DNA from: Actinomycetota bacterium
Lineage (GTDB): Bacteria; Actinomycetota; Acidimicrobiia; Acidimicrobiales; Ilumatobacteraceae
Length of the DNA stretch: 38,478 nucleotides
Direction: 5' to 3'
NCBI GenBank assembly: GCA_030685215.1
Contig: JAUXQB010000184.1
Coordinates: forward strand, 1-38,478
In this document: positions 29,816 to 38,478 of the stretch, piece by piece
Numbering within the stretch: position 1 is the first letter of the stretch
Layout of the letters: every line of letters begins with the position of its first letter
Position numbers and translations under genes: made by a program
The notes under the pieces: generated by a model
What the model saw: the letters and a program-made list of their open reading frames with translations, nothing else
Told to the model about the DNA's origin: nothing
Databases searched by the model: none

Positions 29816-31075
29816 TCAGCCCAGGTCGAAGAGGTCGCGCACGGCGGCGGCGTTGCGCTCGCCCTGCGGAGTCCCTGCGTCGTCCTTCAAGCGCACCGAC
29901 ATCTGGTGCAGCAGCTTGGCGACGATGCCCTTGCTGACAGCCTCGACGGCGTCGCGCTGTGCCTGGTCGAACGAGGCGAGCCGGTTGGAGAAGCGGTCGA
30001 GCTCGGCGAGCCGCACGGCCTCGGCCTTCTCGTGCAACTGCGCCACCAGCGGCGCCGCCTGCCGAGCCGTGGCCTCCATGCCGAAGCGTTCGACTTCCTC
30101 GCCGACGATGGTGCGCACCCGCTGTGCCTCGGCGGCACGGAGTGCCAGGCCGCGAGCAGCCCAGTCGCGCAGGTGGTCGAGGTTGAGCAGGGTGACGTTC
30201 GGCAGGTGCTCGACCTCGGCGGCGACGTCGCGCGGCACCGCGATGTCGACCACCAGCAGCGGGGTGGTGACGTGGGAGCGGGCGGCGGTGAGCAGCTCGG
30301 TGTCGATGATGATGGAGCCGGAGCCGGTGCAGGTGAGCAGCACGTCGGCGTGTGCCAGCGCATCGCCGAGTTCGGTGAACGGCACGATGGTGCCGCCCAC
30401 TCGCTGGGCCAGTTGCGTGGCTCGCAGCTCGGTGCGGTTGGTGACGGTGATGTCGGTGGCCCCGGCCCCGAGCAGTGCGACCGCGACCCCTTCGCCCATG
30501 TCGCCGGCACCCACGACGAGCACTCGCCGGCCGGCGAGGGTGCCGAGCCGCTCGGTGGCCATGTCGACCGCCGCGTGGCTGACCGACGCGGTGTGCTTGC
30601 CGATGGAGGTCTCGGTGCGAGCCCGCTTGCCGGTCTCGATGGCGTGGCGGAACAGCAGGTTGAGGGTGGCCTTCGCGCCGCCCTCGGCCTGCGCGGTCTC
30701 CCACGCGCCACGCACCTGGCCGAGGATCTCGCTCTCGCCGAGCACCGCCGACTCGAGCCCGGCCGCCACTTCGAACAGGTGGGCCACGGCAGCTTCGTCG
30801 TGCTGGCTGTAGAGGTGCGGGTGCAGCTCGTCGGGCAGCATGCCACCGAGCTCGCAGAAGAAGTCGCGGATGTCGGCGTAGGCGCCGTGGAACCGCTCGG
30901 CGACGGCGAACACCTCGGTGCGGTTGCAGGTGCTGAGCACCGCTGCCTCGCGGATGTTGGCGCGGCTGACGAGGCCTGTGATGACCTTGCCCAGCTCGGG
31001 ACCGGCGACGGAGACGCGCTCGAGCAGCTCGATGGGAGCCGTGCGGTGGTTGACACCGATGACGACGATGCTCAT
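29816..31075 (-). CDS. hemA: glutamyl-tRNA reductase
   Basis: The 419-residue enzyme reduces glutamyl-tRNA(Glu) to glutamate-1-semialdehyde, the first committed step of C5 heme synthesis. The catalytic Cys50 sits in STCNRTE. 'GVNHRTAPIELLERV' opens the protein, 'GESEILGQVRGAWE' and the NADPH-binding 'VLVVGAGDMGEGVA' follow, and the C-terminal dimer helices are complete. It lies 30 bp after rex and 8 bp before hemC. A TAGGGT at about 31105 on the minus strand could give it an extra promoter, but read-through from the Rex-controlled promoter is expected. Confidence 0.96.
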   Translation of the reverse strand: MSIVVIGVNHRTAPIELLERVSVAGPELGKVITGLVSRANIREAAVLSTCNRTEVFAVAERFHGAYADIRDFFCELGGMLPDELHPHLYSQHDEAAVAHLFEVAAGLESAVLGESEILGQVRGAWETAQAEGGAKATLNLLFRHAIETGKRARTETSIGKHTASVSHAAVDMATERLGTLAGRRVLVVGAGDMGEGVAVALLGAGATDITVTNRTELRATQLAQRVGGTIVPFTELGDALAHADVLLTCTGSGSIIIDTELLTAARSHVTTPLLVVDIAVPRDVAAEVEHLPNVTLLNLDHLRDWAARGLALRAAEAQRVRTIVGEEVERFGMEATARQAAPLVAQLHEKAEAVRLAELDRFSNRLASFDQAQRDAVEAVSKGIVAKLLHQMSVRLKDDAGTPQGERNAAAVRDLFDLG

Positions 31076-31105
31076 GCCGGGGCCTTGCTCATGACACCGA
31101 CAACC

Positions 31106-31801
31106 CTACGCCGTTGCCGACCGCGAGGTGCCACCGGGCACCGCATGAATGGAGCCACCGGCACGACGCTGCTCGTGGTAGCTGAGGATCTGCAGCTCGA
31201 CGGCCAGATCGACCTTGCGCACTTCGATGGCACGCGGCACCGACAGCACGATCGGTGCGAAGTTGAGGATGCTCGTGACTCCGGCTTTCACCAGCAGGTC
31301 GGCGGCTTCCTGGGCTGCGCTGCCGGGCGTGGCGACCACGCCGATGTTGACCCGCTTGGTCTGCACGATCTGCGGCAACTCGTCGATGTGGCGTACGCGC
31401 ACGCCGCCGAGCACGGTGCCCACCTTCGACTCGTCGACGTCGACGATGCCGGCGACCGGGAAGCCGCGCTCGCCGAACCCGCCGTAGCCGGCGAGTGCCT
31501 GGCCGAGGTTGCCGGCGCCGACGATGACGACCGGCCAGTCGTGCGTGAGCCCGAGCTCGCGGCGGATCTGGTACACGAGGTAGTCGACTTCGTAGCCGAC
31601 GCCGCGAGTGCCATAGCTGCCGAGGTACGACAGGTCCTTGCGCACCTTGGCCGCATTCACCCCACCGAGCTCGGCGAGGCGCTCCGAGGAGATGCTCTCC
31701 ACGCCTTCGGCGCTCTGCTCGCCGAGGATGCGCAGGTACACCGGCAACCGCGACACGGTGGCATCGGGGATGCGTCGGCGGTTGCGATCAGGGGCCATCA
31801 C
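31106..31801 (-). CDS. rex: redox-sensing transcriptional repressor Rex
   Basis: The 231-residue protein has an N-terminal winged helix ('ISSERLAELGGVNAAKVRKDLSYLGSYGTRGVGY') and a Rossmann domain with 'VVIVGAGNLGQALAGYGGF' for NAD(H), ending in the domain-swapped helix region. Rex binds DNA when NADH/NAD+ is low and leaves it when NADH rises. It heads rex-hemA-hemC-hemD, an arrangement known from Streptomyces. The start is GTG 31801, coinciding with the predicted transcription start, or ATG 31798 next to it. It probably represses its own operon through the box at 31819-31836. Confidence 0.96.
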   Translation of the reverse strand: MMAPDRNRRRIPDATVSRLPVYLRILGEQSAEGVESISSERLAELGGVNAAKVRKDLSYLGSYGTRGVGYEVDYLVYQIRRELGLTHDWPVVIVGAGNLGQALAGYGGFGERGFPVAGIVDVDESKVGTVLGGVRVRHIDELPQIVQTKRVNIGVVATPGSAAQEAADLLVKAGVTSILNFAPIVLSVPRAIEVRKVDLAVELQILSYHEQRRAGGSIHAVPGGTSRSATA

Positions 31802-31807
31802 GTCGAC

Positions 31808-31836
31808 ACGTTAGGCACTCGTGCACACGTTCACAA
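31808..31836 (-). promoter_or_regulatory. rex-hemACD promoter with Rex operator
   Basis: On the minus strand, TTGTGA (31831-31836) and TAACGT (31808-31813) are separated by 17 bp, giving a good promoter whose start falls on the rex GTG (leaderless). The stretch 31819-31836 reads TTGTGAACGTGTGCACGA, which matches the Rex consensus TTGTGAA-N4-TTCACAA at 12 of 14 fixed positions. The operator covers the -35 box and spacer. Confidence 0.82.
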
Positions 31837-31881
31837 AGCCAGTGCGGTGAGAGTTCGGTGTGACGTCGGGCATGGATCTCG

Positions 31882-33372
31882 TCAGACGAGGTCCTTGCGC
31901 AGCAACTTGCCACTGACGTTGCGCGGCAACTCGTCGACGAACAGGATCTTCGCCGGGCACTTGTAGCGCGCGAGGTTGTCGAGGCACCAGGAGATGAGCG
32001 TGTCCTCGTGGGCGGTGGCGCCCTGCTTGAGCACGACGAACGCCTTCACGGCCTCACCGGTGTGCGGGTGCGGCACGCCGATGACGCCCACCTCCTCCAC
32101 GTCGGGGTGCTCGAGGAGCACCTCCTCCACCTCGGCCGGGTAGACGTTGAAGCCGCTGACGATGACGAGATCCTTCGCCCGGTCGACGAGGTACAGGTAG
32201 CCGTCGTCGTCGACCACGGCGATGTCGCCGGTGCGCAGCCAGCCGTCGGCGGTGAGCACGCGTGCCGTGGCCTCGGGTTCGTGCAGGTAGCCAAGGAACA
32301 CGTTCGGCCCCTTCACCCAGATCTCGCCGGCATCGCCGGACAGCGCGTCGTCGCCGTGCTCGTCGACCAGCCGCACCTGCACACCGTCGAGCACCTTGCC
32401 GACCGAGCCGGTCTTGGGCACGATGCCCGCCGAGGAGGTGACCACCGGCGACGCCTCGGTGAGCCCGTAGCCCTCGCGCAGCACGACGCCGAAGCGCTCC
32501 TCGAGCCGACGAGTGGCTTCCTCCGGCATCTTGGCGGCGCCGGTGAGCGCGAGGCGCACGCTGGCGAAGCTGTCGGCCGGCGCGTCGTCGAAGTGGCTGA
32601 AGGCCAACCACAGCGGCGGCGCACCGGGGATGACGGTGACGCCGCGGTCGCGGATGGTCTCGAGGGTGGTGAACGGATCGAATCGTTGGATGAGCACCAC
32701 CGTGGCGCCGCGGGCCAGGCTGAGGCCGAGCACCACGTTGAGCCCGAAGATGTGGAACATCGGCAGCACGCCGTAGACCACGTCGGTGGCCACGATGCCG
32801 TCGGCCTGGTGGCCCTGCTCGATGTTGCTGCGCAGGTTGCCGTGGCTGAGCATCGCTGCCCGCGGTGAACCGGCGGTGCCGCTGGTGAAGATGAGGACGG
32901 CCAGGTCGTCGGGTTCGACCTCGACGACGGGCACCTGCTCGGCGCCGAGCAGGTCGTCGAACGCGGAGTCGGCGCCGGGAACGGTGCCGATCTCGGTGGC
33001 CACGACGTGCTCGACCGACGGGAGGCGGCCCCGGTCGACCTGTGCCCACGCATGTGCCGCGAGCGGTTCCACCACCACCACCTTGGCGCCGACGGTGAGC
33101 ACCTCGCGCTCGATCTCGGGGGCGGGGCTGGCTGGGTTGAGCGGCACGGTGACCGCGCCCAGGCCGAGTGCAGCCAGGTACAGGTCGACGAAGTAGCGGC
33201 CGTTGCTGCACAGCAGCGCCACCCGGTCGCCCTTGCCGACGCCCAGCGCGGCGAGGCCACCACGGACGTGCGCGATCTGGTCGCGCAACGCGCCGTAGGT
33301 GGTGGCCCGGCCGCGGCTGATGACCGCGACGTGGTCGGCCGGATGCGGATCGATGATGTGCGCGAGATTCAC
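31882..33372 (-). CDS. acyl-CoA synthetase (AMP-forming, long-chain type)
   Basis: The 496-residue enzyme belongs to the ANL superfamily: P-loop 'FTSGTAGSPRAAMLSHGN', 'GYGLTEASP', 'GWLRTGD', hinge 'VDRAKDLVIVSGFNVYPAEVE' and the catalytic Lys near the C-terminus in 'PRNVSGKLLRK'. It activates a carboxylic acid, probably a fatty acid, to its CoA ester through an acyl-AMP. The GTG at 33372 is preceded by a clear ribosome-binding site (AGAGGGGG about ten bases upstream), one of the few in this window. It lies upstream of rex on the same strand; the Rex promoter sits in between. Substrate chain length cannot be judged. Confidence 0.92.
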   Translation of the reverse strand: MNLAHIIDPHPADHVAVISRGRATTYGALRDQIAHVRGGLAALGVGKGDRVALLCSNGRYFVDLYLAALGLGAVTVPLNPASPAPEIEREVLTVGAKVVVVEPLAAHAWAQVDRGRLPSVEHVVATEIGTVPGADSAFDDLLGAEQVPVVEVEPDDLAVLIFTSGTAGSPRAAMLSHGNLRSNIEQGHQADGIVATDVVYGVLPMFHIFGLNVVLGLSLARGATVVLIQRFDPFTTLETIRDRGVTVIPGAPPLWLAFSHFDDAPADSFASVRLALTGAAKMPEEATRRLEERFGVVLREGYGLTEASPVVTSSAGIVPKTGSVGKVLDGVQVRLVDEHGDDALSGDAGEIWVKGPNVFLGYLHEPEATARVLTADGWLRTGDIAVVDDDGYLYLVDRAKDLVIVSGFNVYPAEVEEVLLEHPDVEEVGVIGVPHPHTGEAVKAFVVLKQGATAHEDTLISWCLDNLARYKCPAKILFVDELPRNVSGKLLRKDLV

Positions 33373-33449
33373 GTGATACCAGCCCCCTCTAGCGGCAGGC
33401 TGGATGTTACTCGCCGGTCACCTCCGCTCGGCGCGGCCGATCGTCCGGC

Positions 33450-33848
33450 TCAGGCGAGTGCGCCGAAGAAGCCGACCACTCGGGCGAGCCGGTGGCCGTC
33501 GGTGGTGAGGTCGGCGACGTCGAGGCCCTGCACCGCGACCGCGCCATCGGCACCCACCAGCTCCCAGCCGTAGCGAGCGACACCGTGGTGGGTGTCGACG
33601 GCGGTCGTGCGCCGGAACGTGTGGCCGGGGAAGTGCGACAGCACGGTGTCGGTGAGGCCGGCGATGGCGTCGTGCCCGGTGCCCTCGAACGGCGGGTCGA
33701 CGAGGATGCCGTCCGGGCTCCAGACGTCGGCGACGAGCTCGGCGCGACGGGTCGCGTCGGGTTCGCAGTAGGCGGCCAGGTGGGTGTCGATCACGTGAGT
33801 GATGTGGGTGATGTCGTCGGTGTTGATGTCGTTGCTCATGTCGCTCAT
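33450..33848 (-). CDS. SnoaL/NTF2-like protein
   Basis: The 132-residue product shows the SnoaL-like fold: 'HITHVIDTHLAAYCEPDATRRAELVADVWSPDGILVDPPFEGTGHDAI' and strands ending 'ADLTTDGHRLARVVGFF'. Members act on or bind small molecules. The starts ATG 33848 and ATG 33839 are both possible; neither has a ribosome-binding site or a well-placed -10 box. It is divergent from the MmyB-like regulator with a palindrome between them, so it is the probable target of that regulator. Confidence 0.88.
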   Translation of the reverse strand: MSDMSNDINTDDITHITHVIDTHLAAYCEPDATRRAELVADVWSPDGILVDPPFEGTGHDAIAGLTDTVLSHFPGHTFRRTTAVDTHHGVARYGWELVGADGAVAVQGLDVADLTTDGHRLARVVGFFGALA

Positions 33849-33875
33849 CGTGCGACCGTCACGTCGTGCGGTCGA

Positions 33876-33890
33876 TGACCCGTGGGGTCA
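33876..33890. promoter_or_regulatory. palindromic operator candidate between divergent genes
   Basis: TGACCC-GTG-GGGTCA is a perfect inverted repeat with a 3-bp spacer, lying about 28 bp upstream of the SnoaL-like gene and about 69 bp upstream of the regulator. The position suits control of both genes by the MmyB-like protein. Confidence 0.45.
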
Positions 33891-33945
33891 CGAGTGCGCC
33901 GAACTCCCTACCTCGGGGGTAATGGTGCGGCCGCGCCGGGCTCCG

Positions 33946-33951
33946 TACAGT
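33946..33951 (+). promoter_or_regulatory. leaderless -10 box of the MmyB-like gene
   Basis: TACAGT is followed by seven bases and the ATG at 33959. The alternative GTG at 33950 overlaps this box, so the ATG is the better start. Confidence 0.5.
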
Positions 33952-33958
33952 GACCGCG

Positions 33959-34786
33959 ATGGCGCGACCAGCTGTTGGCGAACTCATCCGTGACTGGCGT
34001 CTGCGACGCCGGCGCAGCCAGCTCGACCTGTCGATCGAGGTGGGAGTGAGCACCCGCCACCTCTCGTTCGTCGAGACCGGACGGTCGCGTCCGAGCCCGG
34101 AGCTGGTGCTCGCGATCGCACATCACCTGGAGGTGCCGTTGCGCGAGCGCAACTCGCTGCTGCTCGCGGCCGGGTACGCACCGCGCTTCTCCCAGCGATC
34201 GCTCGACGATGCCGAGATGGCGCCGATGCGAGCGTCGGTGCAGCGCCTGCTCGACGCGCATCAGCCGTATCCGGGAGTGGTGATCGACCGGCAGTGGAAC
34301 GTGCTGCTGGCCAACGACGCCGCGGTCGCGCTGCTCACCGGCGTGCCGCCCGAGTTGATGGGGCCGCCGCTCAACGTCTACCGCGCCTCGCTGCACCCCA
34401 ATGGCCTGGCCGCACGCACGCTGAACTTCACCGACTGGGCCGCGTACCTCGTGCAGCAGTTGCGGCGCTCGGCCACCATCACCGGCGACCCGGCGCTCGA
34501 GGCGTTGCTGGCCGAAGTGCTCGCGTACCCCAACGTCGCGCAGATCCGGCCGTTGCTCGACCTCGCTGAGTGGGACGACCCGCCGCTGCTGGTGCCGTTC
34601 CGATTCGCGAGCCCGCTGGGCGAGGTGTCGTTGTTCACCACGCTCACCACCTTCGGCACGCCTCGCGACGTGACGCTCGACGAGTTGGCGATCGAGCTGT
34701 TCTACCCGGCCGACGATCGCTCGGACCGTCTGTTGCGCGACCTGGCCGACGCGAGCCCGAGTGTCAGAGGCGCAGCAACGAGATGA
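33959..34786 (+). CDS. XRE/MmyB-like transcriptional regulator
   Basis: The 275-residue protein has an N-terminal XRE-type HTH ('ELIRDWRLRRRRSQLDLSIEVGVSTRHLSFVETGRSRPSPELVLAIAHHLEV', about residues 5-65). A PAS-like MmyB ligand-binding domain follows ('YPGVVIDRQWNVLLANDAAVALL', 'NVYRASLHPNGLAARTLNFTDWAAYLV', ending in 'VSLFTTLTTFGTPRDVTLDELAIELFYPAD'). The family senses small hydrophobic ligands and often regulates a divergent enzyme gene. Here the divergent neighbour is the SnoaL-like gene. The last 23 bases overlap a tiny minus-strand ORF. Confidence 0.92.
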   Translation: MARPAVGELIRDWRLRRRRSQLDLSIEVGVSTRHLSFVETGRSRPSPELVLAIAHHLEVPLRERNSLLLAAGYAPRFSQRSLDDAEMAPMRASVQRLLDAHQPYPGVVIDRQWNVLLANDAAVALLTGVPPELMGPPLNVYRASLHPNGLAARTLNFTDWAAYLVQQLRRSATITGDPALEALLAEVLAYPNVAQIRPLLDLAEWDDPPLLVPFRFASPLGEVSLFTTLTTFGTPRDVTLDELAIELFYPADDRSDRLLRDLADASPSVRGAATR

Positions 34787-34847
34787 TGCCGGCCGCCAGG
34801 ATGGCGACGAGCAACAGGCCGAGAGTGAGGGTGGTGGCTGGGCGCAT
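34764..34847 (-). CDS. 27-residue hydrophobic peptide
   Basis: The ORF encodes a 27-residue peptide with an Arg near each end around one membrane helix (about residues 6-24, 'TLGLLLVAILAAGIISLL'). Support is that the minus strand has TAGCGT (34855-34860) seven bases before the ATG, the same leaderless arrangement as several longer genes here. Its 3' end overlaps the tail of the MmyB-like gene on the other strand. It lies 23 bp downstream of the SAM-hydrolase-like gene. The function is unknown, and it could be a chance ORF. Confidence 0.45.
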   Translation of the reverse strand: MRPATTLTLGLLLVAILAAGIISLLRL

Positions 34848-34854
34848 GACGGCC

Positions 34855-34860
34855 ACGCTA
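34855..34860 (-). promoter_or_regulatory. leaderless -10 box of the 27-residue peptide
   Basis: The minus strand reads TAGCGT, then seven bases, then the ATG at 34847. The box lies between the SAM-hydrolase-like gene stop and the tiny ORF. Confidence 0.4.
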
Positions 34861-34870
34861 CCGGCGCGGG

Positions 34871-35761
34871 TCAGCGAGGGGCCGGGCGCATGCTGACGGG
34901 CACGCTCATCTGCACGCTCACCGCGGTGCCGCCGTCGCCTTCGGCCAGCGGGCGCAGCGTGACCTGATCGGCGGTGGCCAGTGACAGCTCGTCGGCGGCG
35001 GAGCGACGGTCGAGCACGAGCGCGAGCAGGCCGAACCCGTCGATGGCGAGCCCGATGGAACCCGGGCCGAGCCCGGCGGCATCGTCGACGCGTTGCGCCA
35101 CGCGGGTGACGTCGCCCGCGACCACCTGCAACCGGGTGCCCACCGGCACGCCCCACGGCAGCACGTCGTCGAGCCCGACGTTGAGCTGGCAGTTGCCGAA
35201 GTGGTCGATCCACAGCACTTCCGCGTGCACCCCGACCTCACCGCCATCGAGGTCGCGCGGCAGCGGCACGACGCCGGGCAGCAACTCGTCGGCATCGACC
35301 GGGGAACCGAGCTCGGCGAGATCGACGCCGTTGCACAGGTGCGCGGCCACCGGCGCGAACACGTCGCGGCTGGGCACCACCACGCCGGGTGTGGCGAGGT
35401 GGAACTCGGGGTTGTCGAGCAGCACCGCTCGGCCCGCACCGCCGGCCATGGAGATGGCCGACGCGAGCAGACCGTTGTCGGGACCGAGCACCACACCCTC
35501 GCCGTCGGCGACCTCAATGGCGACGGCGCGGCGCTGGCCGGCGTCGACGCACGCCATCACGACCCCCGACGGCACATAGCCGATGGAGCGAGCCAGTGCG
35601 AGGCTGCCGGCGCGTACGTCGAACGGTGCGATGTGGTGCGTGAGGTCGATGACCCGCGCGTGCGCCGCCAGGTCGCGCACGATCGCGTGCACGACGCCGA
35701 CGTGCTCGTCGACCACACCGAGGTCGCTCAGGAACGAGACGGTGTCGTAGCTGCGGCCCAT
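34871..35761 (-). CDS. SAM hydroxide adenosyltransferase (DUF62/chlorinase) family protein with altered triad
   Basis: The 296-residue product matches the family of SAM-cleaving enzymes (PF01887): 'SFLSDLG' with D13, 'HARVIDLTHHIAPFDVRAGSLALA', 'LGPDNGLL', 'RDVFAPVAAHL' and 'DHFGNCQLNV'. Typical members hydrolyse S-adenosylmethionine to adenosine and methionine using an Asp-Arg-His triad. Here the VDPGVG-type Asp loop is shortened to VDAGQRR (D73), and the FHGRD His is replaced (VPSRD, Pro130), so the normal triad seems incomplete. Activity may be altered or lost. TAGCGT eight bases before the ATG (35770-35775) gives a near-leaderless start just after the terminator of the small RNA. Family membership is firm; function is open. 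Confidence 0.85.
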   Translation of the reverse strand: MGRSYDTVSFLSDLGVVDEHVGVVHAIVRDLAAHARVIDLTHHIAPFDVRAGSLALARSIGYVPSGVVMACVDAGQRRAVAIEVADGEGVVLGPDNGLLASAISMAGGAGRAVLLDNPEFHLATPGVVVPSRDVFAPVAAHLCNGVDLAELGSPVDADELLPGVVPLPRDLDGGEVGVHAEVLWIDHFGNCQLNVGLDDVLPWGVPVGTRLQVVAGDVTRVAQRVDDAAGLGPGSIGLAIDGFGLLALVLDRRSAADELSLATADQVTLRPLAEGDGGTAVSVQMSVPVSMRPAPR

Positions 35762-35769
35762 GGGCGCTC

Positions 35770-35775
35770 ACGCTA
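35770..35775 (-). promoter_or_regulatory. near-leaderless -10 box of the SAM-hydrolase-like gene
   Basis: The minus strand reads TAGCGT, then eight bases, then the ATG at 35761. It lies just downstream of the strong terminator at 35784, so the gene can be transcribed independently of the upstream RNA. Confidence 0.45.
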
Positions 35776-35783
35776 CCTGCGGG

Positions 35784-35834
35784 AAAAAACGTAGAGGGCC
35801 GATGCCAACCCCCCGATGGCACCAGCCCTCTGCG
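35784..35834 (-). terminator. strong intrinsic terminator with G6 loop
   Basis: On the minus strand a stem of about 18 bp (arms 35816-35834 and 35790-35807, one mismatch and two G-U type pairs) closes the loop TCGGGGGGT and is followed by four bases and a run of six T (35784-35789). It is the only clear rho-independent terminator with a T-run in the window. Confidence 0.88.
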
Positions 35835-35894
35835 GCGCAGCCCTTGCGGGGCGCGACACCCGTGTGATGAATCACTCGGCGGTCGTTGTGACCG
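35784..35894 (-). ncRNA. unidentified small RNA or attenuator leader
   Basis: A -10-like TATCCT (35901-35906, minus strand) predicts a transcript from about 35894 to the terminator at 35784, about 110 nt. It can form CGGTC/GACCG, GTGA/TCAC and GCG-CCC-GCAA-GGG-GC hairpins before the terminator. AGGGCTG occurs twice, once in the terminator 5' arm and once about 20 nt earlier, so the 3' arm has an alternative partner, as in attenuators. The next gene has its own start signal, so a free-standing RNA is also possible. I do not recognise a known riboswitch class in it. The 281-bp gap 35762-36042 holds nothing else clear. Confidence 0.55.
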
Positions 35895-36042
35895 ATGCGA
35901 AGGATAGGCACACCCGGGCCGGTGAGAAAAGAGTCACAGCCAAATTTCTTTCGCGCCCGTGAACGGTGCCTGAACAACGTGTGTTCGGCATCGACCAACG
36001 CGGCCGACCTCGCGAGCGCAGCGCGGCTGGCAGAATGAGGCG

Positions 36043-36414
36043 ATGTTGACGGTCGGCACCGTGGTCATGGGCGTGGGCGATCTGCACCGCGCCATCGCGT
36101 TCTGGTGCGACGCGCTGCACTACCGGCCCAAGCGAGCGGTGCGGCCGGACGACGACTTCATGATCCTCGTGCCCGTCGAGGGCAGCGGCGCGCATCTCGC
36201 GCTCGACGTGAGCAACAGCACCGCACCGCTGGAACCGCGCGTGCACCTCGATCTGTTCGCCGGCGACGCGGCCGATCAGGCCGCGGAGGTCGAACGACTG
36301 ATCGGCCTCGGCGCCACGCGCGTCGACTGGCCGCACTACCCGGCCGACCCCGACTTCGTGGTGCTCGCCGACACCGAGGGCAATCGCTTCTGCGTCATCG
36401 ACACCACTCACTGA
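36043..36414 (+). CDS. VOC (glyoxalase-like) superfamily protein
   Basis: The 123-residue product has the paired beta-alpha-beta-beta-beta modules of the vicinal oxygen chelate fold: 'TVVMGVGDLHRAIAFWCDALHY', 'FMILVPVEGSGAHLALDV', 'RVHLDLFAGDAADQAAEVERLIGLGATRVDWP' and 'FVVLADTEGNRFCVID'. The second module keeps the H and E positions that bind metal in active members, but a full metal site cannot be confirmed. The family includes glyoxalases, dioxygenases and resistance proteins. CAGAAT six bases before the ATG could be a leaderless -10 box. It converges with proC. Confidence 0.9.
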   Translation: MLTVGTVVMGVGDLHRAIAFWCDALHYRPKRAVRPDDDFMILVPVEGSGAHLALDVSNSTAPLEPRVHLDLFAGDAADQAAEVERLIGLGATRVDWPHYPADPDFVVLADTEGNRFCVIDTTH

Positions 36415-36442
36415 CGCGCCGAGCGCGACCCGTGACGTTCGA

Positions 36443-37234
36443 TCAGTGGTGGCCGAGCTCGATGCTGCGCTGCGTCGCGGCCATCACCGCTTCCAGGAAC
36501 GCACTGCGCACGGCGTGCTCCTCGAGTTGGCGAACACCCGCGGCGGTGGTGCCACCCGGCGAGGTGACCATTGCGCGCAGCTGCGCGGGGTCGCCGCGCT
36601 GCTGCAGCAGTGCTGCCGAACCGACGAACAGCTGTGCCACCAACGCCTCGCTGTTCGCGCGGCTGAGGCCGGCGAGCACGCCGGCGTCGATGAGCGCCTC
36701 GGCCACGAGGAACAGGTAGGCGGGACCGCTGCCGGCCAGCCCGGTGACGGCATCGAGCTGCACCTCGGGCACGCGCACCACCAGCCCCACCGAGCCGAGG
36801 ATGCTCTCGGCCCATGCCAGGTCGTCGTCGTCGGCAGTGGGGCCGGCGCAGATGGCCGCGGCGCCCTCGCCGACGAGCGCGGGCGTGTTGGGCATCGCGC
36901 GCACCACCGCCACTTCGGGACCGGCCGCGTCTTGCAACGCCGCCGAGCTGATGCCGGCCGCGATGCTGAGCAACCGGGTGGCGCCGGCGCGTGCCGCCGT
37001 GCTGCATGCGGTGGCGACGTCGTAGGGCTTCACCGCGATGAGCGCGGCCTGGCATGCGGGCGTCTCGTCGGTGACGGCGACGCCGGGGAACATCTCGCGC
37101 AGTTGCTCCACACGAGCCGGCTGCACCTCGACGATGGCGATGTCGGCGGTGGCCCACCCGGCCTGCAGCAGCCCACCGACCAGGGCAGCGCCCATGTTGC
37201 CGCCACCGACCACAGCCAACCGATACGTCGTCAT
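36443..37234 (-). CDS. proC: pyrroline-5-carboxylate reductase
   Basis: The 263-residue enzyme makes proline from pyrroline-5-carboxylate using NAD(P)H. It has the N-terminal dinucleotide motif 'VVGGGNMGAALVGGLL', the substrate-domain signature 'TGLAGSGPAYLFLVAEALIDAGVLAGLSR', and 'MVTSPGGTTAAGVRQLEE' near the C-terminus. Length and motifs are standard. TAACCT six bases upstream of the ATG (37241-37246) supports a leaderless start at 37234. Confidence 0.96.
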   Translation of the reverse strand: MTTYRLAVVGGGNMGAALVGGLLQAGWATADIAIVEVQPARVEQLREMFPGVAVTDETPACQAALIAVKPYDVATACSTAARAGATRLLSIAAGISSAALQDAAGPEVAVVRAMPNTPALVGEGAAAICAGPTADDDDLAWAESILGSVGLVVRVPEVQLDAVTGLAGSGPAYLFLVAEALIDAGVLAGLSRANSEALVAQLFVGSAALLQQRGDPAQLRAMVTSPGGTTAAGVRQLEEHAVRSAFLEAVMAATQRSIELGHH

Positions 37235-37240
37235 CGCGCC

Positions 37241-37246
37241 AGGTTA
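37241..37246 (-). promoter_or_regulatory. leaderless -10 box of proC
   Basis: The minus strand reads TAACCT, then six bases, then the ATG at 37234. Confidence 0.45.
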
Positions 37247-37274
37247 GGCCGTGGTGCCGGCGAGTGGTGAGGGC

Positions 37275-37318
37275 ACCGGGCGAGCGGCTCGACTTCCCCG
37301 ACGTGCCGCTCGCCCGGT
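37275..37318 (-). terminator. 14-bp perfect inverted repeat upstream of proC
   Basis: ACCGGGCGAGCGGC (37275-37288) and its exact complement (37305-37318) form a 14-bp stem with a 16-base loop. It lies in the 123-bp gap between the YbjN-like gene and proC on the same strand. Without a T-run it may be a GC-type terminator for the upstream genes or a regulatory site. Confidence 0.5.
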
Positions 37319-37357
37319 ACCTCTACTGGGTACGGGCGGGGCCATCGATCGGCAAAA

Positions 37358-37822
37358 TCAGGTGAACTTGCTGGCGAACGCGAGTCGCAGCAGCGAGGGG
37401 AACGACTGCTCGGTGTAGCTGTACAACGACCCGACGATGCGGTCGAGCTCGGCCTCGTTGAGCGAGGTGAGTGGCAGCTCGCCGCGCAGGAACAGTGCGT
37501 CTTCCACCCCGATCGCGAAGTGGGCGCCCACCAACCGGTCGTTGCGGCGCAGCGCGGCTTCGTAGACCTGGCCGATGTTCTCGGCGGGCGCGGGCAGCAC
37601 GTAGACCTCGTAGCGCAGCGTGCGCTGGCCGAGGGTGAACCAGATGGTGATGTGCTCCTTCTCTTCACCGCGCAGCCGCACGTACCAACGCGGCTCGGCG
37701 TCGCCGGGCTCGCCGCGGTCGACGGCTTCGAACAACTCGTTCTCGGCCGCGAACCCGGTGAGCCAGCCGGTGATGCATGCCTCGTACTCGGCCAGCGTGG
37801 GCGGCGAGTGGTAGTCGGTCAT
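37358..37822 (-). CDS. YbjN / type III secretion chaperone-like fold protein
   Basis: The 154-residue acidic protein has the YbjN-like pattern of helices around a central sheet: 'WYVRLRGEEKEHITIWFTLGQRTLRYEVYVLP', 'IGQVYEAALRRNDRLVGAHFAIGVEDALFLRGELPL' and 'ELDRIVGSLYSYTEQSFPSLLRLAF'. Homologues sit beside mshA in mycobacteria and other actinobacteria, and the same order is seen here, so the pairing is conserved, though the role is unknown (a chaperone or regulator is often supposed). The ATG at 37822 lies 22 bp after the mshA stop on the same strand. Confidence 0.9.
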   Translation of the reverse strand: MTDYHSPPTLAEYEACITGWLTGFAAENELFEAVDRGEPGDAEPRWYVRLRGEEKEHITIWFTLGQRTLRYEVYVLPAPAENIGQVYEAALRRNDRLVGAHFAIGVEDALFLRGELPLTSLNEAELDRIVGSLYSYTEQSFPSLLRLAFASKFT

Positions 37823-37844
37823 CGGTCGTCGTCGATCAGCGCCG

Positions 37845-38478
37845 TCACCCGCAGGCGACCAGTTCGCGAGCACCGAGGTCGTTGTAGAGGCGGCGCAGGC
37901 GAGCGGCGGCGAAGCCCCACGTGTAGCGCTTCGCTCGCTCGGCACCGCGGGCACCGAGTGCAGCGGCGTGCACCGGGTGGTCGATGATCTCGCGGAGGTA
38001 GTGCGCGAACAGCGCGGGGTCGCGCGCAGGAACCAGGTAGCCGGTCTCGCCGTGGTCGACCAAGGTGAGCAGTCCGCCGACCGCGGCGGCCACGACGGGC
38101 ACGCCACAGGCCGAGGCTTCCAGTGCGACGAGGCCGAAGCTCTCGCTGCGGCTGGGCACCACCACCGCGTCGGCAGCGCGGTAGTACGTGCTCAGGATGT
38201 GGTGCGGCTGCGGTGGCACGAAGCGCACCTGGTTGGCGAGCCCGAGCTCGTCGACGAGCGCGAGCAGGTGGGTCATCTCCTGCTGGCCGTCGTGGCCGCT
38301 GGCGCCACCGACGATGAGCAGCAGCGCGTCGGGACGACGCAGCTGGGCGAGTGCCCGCACCGCGAGGTCGGGCGCCTTCAGCGGCTGGATGCGGCCGACG
38401 AACAGCAGCACCGGTGCGTCGAGTGGGAGGCCCAGCGCGTTGCGCGCGCCGCGGCGCTCGCCGGGGGCGAAGAACGCG
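37845..38478 (-). CDS. mshA: MshA-like GT4 glycosyltransferase, C-terminal part (truncated by window edge)
   Basis: The last 211 residues of a GT-B fold, GT4-family transferase are present; the frame stays open to the right edge, so the N-terminal half lies outside. The visible part has 'FFAPGERRGARNALGLPLDAPVLLFVGRIQPLKAPDLAVRA', 'VRFVPPQPHHILSTYYRAADAVVVPSRSESFGLVALEASACGVPVVAAAVGG' with the UDP-sugar-binding EX7E motif, and a C-terminal Trp/Arg helix. This closely resembles D-inositol-3-phosphate glycosyltransferase MshA, first step of mycothiol synthesis, and the adjoining YbjN gene supports that. A GTG at 38411 is internal and not the real start. Confidence 0.88.
   Translation of the reverse strand, partial: AFFAPGERRGARNALGLPLDAPVLLFVGRIQPLKAPDLAVRALAQLRRPDALLLIVGGASGHDGQQEMTHLLALVDELGLANQVRFVPPQPHHILSTYYRAADAVVVPSRSESFGLVALEASACGVPVVAAAVGGLLTLVDHGETGYLVPARDPALFAHYLREIIDHPVHAAALGARGAERAKRYTWGFAAARLRRLYNDLGARELVACG

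Follow-up and report, generated by a model that had tools for sequence, protein, structure and literature searches.

A predicted small RNA with an invariant G6 loop in the bacterial family Ilumatobacteraceae

The window analysed here is a stretch of 38,478 nt from a member of the Ilumatobacteraceae (genome G000). Towards its end it contains, on the minus strand, some 110 nt of intergenic DNA that close with a strong terminator just ahead of a gene for a SAM hydroxide adenosyltransferase (SAM hydrolase). What is this stretch for: does it control the gene behind it, or does it encode an RNA with a role of its own? A preliminary description, made from the window alone, had allowed for both, a ligand-controlled leader and a free small RNA, and the features on which the answer depends are the following.

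34871..35761, minus strand: SAM-hydrolase gene (PF01887, 4e-30; PF20257, 2.5e-8; NCBIfam matches under their cut-offs)
35770..35775, minus strand: leaderless-type -10 box TAGCGT of the SAM-hydrolase gene, 8 nt before the ATG at 35761
35784..35895, minus strand: small RNA of about 110 nt, its start predicted from the -10 box and its end from the T-run
35784..35789, minus strand: T6 run of the terminator
35793..35831, minus strand: terminal hairpin, with 15 uninterrupted, perfect base pairs and a loop of 9 nt
35808..35816, minus strand: loop UCGGGGGGU, invariant, with G6 at 35814-35809
35834..35857, minus strand: hairpin A, G[TA]CGC ... GCGCC, part of the conserved core
35894-35880 and 35879-35860, minus strand: two 5' hairpins, which vary among relatives
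35901..35906, minus strand: -10-like box TATCCT of the small RNA, read from the sequence
35923..35937, minus strand: conserved upstream element GTGACTCTTTTCTCA, consensus GTGnCnCTTTTCnCA
36043-36414, plus strand: glyoxalase-like gene, between proC and the RNA

Structure, strand and terminator

The coordinates, strand and parts originally proposed for the RNA proved right, including the -10-like TATCCT, which lies about 7 nt ahead of the proposed start. Along the minus strand this box is followed by three small hairpins, the 15-bp hairpin and T6, and the predicted folding energy of 35904-35784 is -58.6 kcal/mol, where shuffled sequences average -45.8 (z -3.44) and none of 200 does as well. Among the 11 hairpins listed for both strands of the whole window (stems of at least 12 bp, loops of 3-10 nt), the terminal hairpin is the sole one with a T-run behind it, as had been claimed of its long stem and G6 loop. 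It is also the single match in a terminator scan of positions 30000-38478; shuffled sequences give 1.8 terminators on average, so that the T-run terminator alone is within chance, and it is the conservation of the small RNA, together with its covariation, that exceeds chance.

For the comparisons, 24 duplicates were removed from 154 cores, and three alignments were built: A1, with 28 of 30 loci; A2, with 20 of the 30, which gave the covariance model R1; and A3, with 100 chosen loci. In the 20 aligned sequences of the two-hairpin core, 96.9% of the cells are paired, 10 of the 23 pairs are changed on both sides, and the covariation score was reached by none of 500 shuffles. The 100 matches (90 distinct), in an alignment that was fitted to the structure and hence leans towards it, are paired in 95.7% of the cells and show compensatory changes in 14 of the 23 pairs; again, 0 of 500 shuffles reached the covariation score of the 90-row set, although its number of pair types, one of five covariation measures, was reached by 171 of 500. 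Both hairpins contribute, with 5 of 8 pairs changed on both sides in hairpin A (96.3% of cells paired) and 9 of 15 in the terminal hairpin. When the 12 inner pairs of the terminal stem were counted outward from the loop, without an alignment, in 129 distinct copies, 1547 of 1548 cells were standard. In loci collected with the hairpin pattern, the constancy of the loop and its nearest pairs is by construction, since the pattern fixes them. The loop UCGGGGGGU is nonetheless identical in 34 of the 34 genomes found by a DNA search that did not use the pattern, while the stem varies.

The same stems indicate the strand. They contain 123 G-T pairs and 7 A-C pairs in the 129 copies, and because G-T is standard only on the minus strand, the RNA is read from that strand. 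The longest T-run behind the hairpin is of at least 4 nt in 78 of the 129 copies and of at most 2 nt in 29; since the hairpin is kept in these 29 as well, more than classical termination seems to be selected. Comparison of the copies thus establishes a conserved structure, a strand and a terminator-like end for the predicted RNA, which, with its promoter-like sequence, has the layout of an intrinsically terminated small RNA, although the T-run is weak in those 29 copies.

At about 80 nt, the shortest members consist of the core only and lack the two 5' hairpins. In four loci (L023, L036, L050 and L167) the second 5' hairpin contains ACCCCCC, which is absent from the window's RNA and could pair with the G6U loop of the same molecule. 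As there is one G6 run per molecule, a G-quadruplex would be possible only between molecules.

Distribution of the RNA and its promoter

A DNA search with a 131-nt query found the small RNA in 34 of 61 genomes, G000 included: in 34 of the 37 from Ilumatobacteraceae and in none of the 24 from other families of the order. The three family genomes with no match (G012, G028 and G033) likewise had no match for the SAM-hydrolase gene, so that assembly gaps are likely. This conservation, together with the compensatory changes, is what the preliminary description had asked to see in relatives. A DNA pattern of the hairpin matched at least 119 stretches of a species-level collection and none in viral contigs. 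Named isolates among the matches are Ilumatobacter nonamiensis (L153) and Desertimonas flava (L065), in which the RNA could be tested directly; the remaining matches are mostly actinobacterial bins, and those titled Bifidobacterium breve, Ferrithrix and Acidobacteria probably carry wrong labels. A match in Rhodococcus (L149), with 8 of 14 stem positions as opposed to 12-14 in the rest, was taken as a chance match and left out.

Searches with R1, in which strict filters left 12-19 candidates to be scored per genome, covered 248 genomes of the order, with 11 matching (9 of these Ilumatobacteraceae), and 396 of the phylum, with 14 matching (11 in the family); with so few candidates, a lack of matches beyond the family is less certain than their presence within it. 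Three other families of the phylum gave weak matches of 30-34 bits (G438, G490 and G526).

In Rfam 15 we found no family for the region, with matches up to E 10 all far below cut-off, nor any match above cut-off for five related loci, which agrees with the earlier remark that no known riboswitch class fitted; the whole window has one match above cut-off, a tRNA at 271-342. In the literature on Ilumatobacter and Acidimicrobiia, judged by title or by the start of the abstract, no described small RNA was found. As far as sequence comparison can tell, the small RNA is a real family of the Ilumatobacteraceae, outside Rfam 15 and the literature searched, and adds a conserved structured RNA to the Acidimicrobiia.

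The region ahead of the RNA is promoter-like in many members. The string TG(N)NTANNNT occurs 115-45 nt ahead of the loop in 64 of the 123 copies with enough upstream sequence and in 14 of a shuffled control. Further upstream, the element GTGnCnCTTTTCnCA is present in a looser form in 58 of these 123 copies and in its full form in 42, and in all 58 a TANNNT starts 30-32 nt from its first base; copies without the element differ in their upstream sequence. Of the 11 places where 12 genomes carry the full form, 10 are the promoter of this RNA, while G003 and G034 have no exact full form; because such loci served to define the element, its presence in them is by construction, and the finding is that it is nearly absent elsewhere. 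This 15-nt element suggests a dedicated regulator in part of the family.

The G6 loop and its possible partners

Our best reading, which we hold with moderate confidence, is that the locus is a standalone intergenic small RNA gene whose product probably acts in trans through the G6 loop; trans action through this loop is the likeliest mechanism, if an unproven one. The RNA would be transcribed from its own promoter, starting at about 35895, and transcription would stop at the T-run, with the SAM-hydrolase mRNA starting separately behind it. The rigid terminal hairpin might then present UCGGGGGGU as a seed that would pair in trans with mRNAs at C-rich stretches (complement ACCCCCCGA) and so block or stabilise them, by analogy with other small RNAs whose C-rich loops pair with G-rich stretches.

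Three known RNAs come closest to such a mechanism. 6C RNA (RF01066) is also actinobacterial and short (its model has 75 nt) and has hairpins with a homopolymer loop, from which our RNA differs in having G6, not C6, on the transcribed strand; going by the title of a study, 6C RNA reportedly binds mRNA targets through its C-rich loops. The locus is not a 6C RNA on either strand, as the opposite strand scored 16.7 bits against a gathering cut-off of 47. C-rich loops of 6C RNA are mentioned in a passage of PMC9569102. RepG of Helicobacter pylori, in the part of PMC8295292 that concerns it, uses the terminator-hairpin loop to target a homopolymer run, and shares both of these traits with our proposal; the polarity is reversed, because its loop is C/U-rich and acts on a G-repeat, and the host is another. 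GsrN of Alphaproteobacteria has a conserved loop as its pairing site, a 5' and C-rich one, and a section of PMC5869019 reports homologues with a G-rich 5' loop in Rhizobiaceae. For both RepG and GsrN, sequence was compared by the Rfam scan only. In the literature consulted, small RNAs with homopolymer-like loops have C-rich ones for the most part, a literature search on G-rich seeds found nothing, and the G-run raises the question of a C-rich RNA or a protein as partner. If the loop were to recognise C-rich coding starts, an unlikely reading taken up below, this would be a family-wide small RNA of reversed polarity, the mirror image of those with C-rich loops.

A search for targets gave candidates of limited standing. 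The loop complement AACCCCCCGA occurs at 63 places in 11 family genomes, 11 of them being the RNA itself, and 56 were inspected. Non-self sites number 52 in 11 RNA-bearing and 81 in 11 RNA-lacking genomes, and with reversed-pattern controls of 12 and 27, respectively, these 22 genomes show no clear depletion or avoidance of the loop complement. Pairing of the G-rich loop with C-rich ribosome-binding regions, which the preliminary description had put forward as a possibility, was part of the question; no conserved site turned up among exact 10-mers in 11 genomes and in two genes followed over relatives, a search that G-U pairs and other registers escape.

The longest match lies in G000, where 20 nt perfectly complementary to the loop and the 3' arm fall on codons 4-10 of a gene for a 4Fe-4S protein:

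L169 1117-1530, minus strand: 4Fe-4S protein gene of G000, with the N-terminal motif DANPP

The gene beside it we take to be cytochrome-b-like. It is conceivable, though unlikely, that the invariant G6 loop recognises C-rich coding starts (ACCCCCCGA), with this 4Fe-4S protein of a cytochrome-b-like operon as a possible target in G000 and control of respiration as the outcome; if true, respiration would be controlled in a way specific to this family, from a promoter element nearly unique in each genome examined. As a conserved target the gene was rejected, because DANPP is kept in RNA-lacking families too (50 of the 60 matching genomes were read). At the codon that has to supply C6, 5 of 32 genomes with the RNA have CCC, as do 2 of 17 without it; the three adjoining codons do not separate the two groups (P 0.10-0.70), and duplex energies, computed against one fixed 20-nt segment from G000, are -32.1 and -31.3 (P 0.50). 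Since wobble codons and energies are alike, the pairing carries no sign of selection, and the gene is a candidate in G000 only. Nor does it stand out in G032, where, of 274 gene starts (in 400 kb, 8% of the genome), 3 equal or exceed it in pairing with the loop. A match in rpoZ of G034 was likewise discarded, as AACCCCCCG is found only in that genome among the 15 gene starts recovered from 30 loci. Other candidate sites are katG in G026 and 5' regions in G014, G023, G025 and G035.

These results bear on a second, rather unlikely explanation, in which the RNA is equally standalone but its G6 hairpin, rather than seeking out mRNAs, would serve to bind or titrate a protein or to dock on a second structured RNA. 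A loop invariant to the base in 34 of 34 genomes is stricter than a pairing seed needs, and the limited target search found no conserved mRNA site, both of which would fit such an explanation; however, no candidate partner emerged. The C-rich loops of 6C RNA could pair with G6, but none of 61 genomes gave a match to it, in a weak search whose control detected 6C in 1 of 14 genomes, below cut-off.

Terminator-like hairpins with a T-run and a very similar loop, UCCGGGGGGU, were also seen in another family of the same order, in L040 (1501-1569, minus strand) and L041 (1501-1583, minus strand), behind CO-dehydrogenase-type genes (the L041 protein was scanned); in 1.9 Mb of loci, redundant ones included, they are the only other T-run hairpins whose loop has a run of 5-8 G or C.

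The neighbouring SAM-hydrolase gene

In our favoured reading the RNA acts elsewhere, and we consider it very probable, from the comparisons that follow, that it is a standalone small RNA and not a switch for the neighbouring gene. In 114 of the 129 copies the RNA is followed by the SAM hydrolase within 250 nt, and in 120 it is preceded by proC within 500 nt (in the window, proC and a YbjN gene lie further upstream), and the linkage to the SAM hydrolase counts against a standalone RNA and makes some link possible. Of the 15 exceptions on the downstream side, six (L074, L079, L096, L120, L130 and L151) have at most 151 nt left past the RNA, in L140 the region is masked by N, and in L121 the gene is found at 265 nt. 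In L137, 367 nt past the RNA show no match to the SAM hydrolase.

The RNA is, however, kept when either neighbour changes, which supports the standalone reading. A racemase gene stands between the RNA and the SAM hydrolase in L029, L035, L106, L116 and L162 (PF01177 in the one that was scanned with Pfam), the gene past the RNA in L017 is presumably CoA-transferase-like, proC is inverted in L025, and the window itself has its glyoxalase-like gene. In G036, the genome of L017, the SAM hydrolase is on another contig, with no RNA and behind what we assume to be a dUTPase-like gene, and the single match to the RNA stays behind proC. Conversely, 15 of 19 regions taken from other families, with about 1.2 kb of upstream sequence, have proC ahead of the SAM hydrolase, and the DNA search did not find the RNA in these outgroup genomes; the neighbourhood is therefore wider, and probably older, than the RNA.

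The gene also appears to have a start signal of its own. The preliminary description had noticed a leaderless-type -10 box past the terminator, and TAGCGT is indeed present there; a TANNNT ending 6-11 nt before the start occurs in 73 of 110 SAM-hydrolase genes, compared with 8 of 110 when the upstream strings are reversed (the start was not found in 4 of the 114 linked genes). The interval 4-23 nt ahead of the start has no TANNNT in 34 of the 110, and the distance from the loop motif to the start is 30-33 nt in L093, L101, L111 and L135, which leaves scant room for a promoter. With the RNA present in nearly all family genomes and its core hairpins covarying, the frequency of this box is a further argument for a standalone RNA.

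That the RNA acts in cis on the SAM-hydrolase gene, as a leader or attenuator that may sense SAM or a related compound, thus seems very unlikely, even though the close linkage, the strong terminator ahead of the gene and the genes with no TANNNT near their start would all suit such a role. The repeat AGGGCTG, which is present in the window as described, would suit it too; of the two exclusive pairings of the 3' arm of the terminator that the repeat was thought to allow, however, the alternative one does not covary in relatives, where it is at the level of shuffles (87.1% paired against 86.3%; covariation 0.098 against 0.096). The box past the terminator, the outgroups that keep proC and the SAM hydrolase with no match to the RNA, and the relocated gene of G036 also speak against a leader, and the ligand-controlled option is not supported. 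A free small RNA is what remains of the original proposal, supported at the level of sequence by the promoter-like box, the covarying structure and terminator, the mostly separate -10 of the gene and the loss of linkage in some genomes. The SAM hydrolase is then probably a neighbour, outside the mechanism of the RNA.

Least probable of all is a plain terminator or insulator between proC and the SAM hydrolase, with a loop of no role, which the T-run and strong stem would satisfy but which does not account for a loop identical in 34 of 34 genomes, T-runs of at most 2 nt in over a fifth of the copies, a second conserved and covarying hairpin or a promoter-like box upstream.

Two further observations concern the same neighbourhood. 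Directly behind the SAM-hydrolase gene, at 34764-34847 on the minus strand, an ORF could encode a single-span micro-protein of 27 amino acids (MRPATTLTLGLLLVAILAAGIISLLRL) that has no match in NCBIfam; a pattern found a similar ORF in 100 of 103 loci examined. In 9 of the 19 outgroup regions (L225, L227, L228, L229, L230, L233, L235, L240 and L242), a small HTH gene of the excisionase type lies upstream of the SAM hydrolase, mostly between it and proC, where the Ilumatobacteraceae have the RNA.
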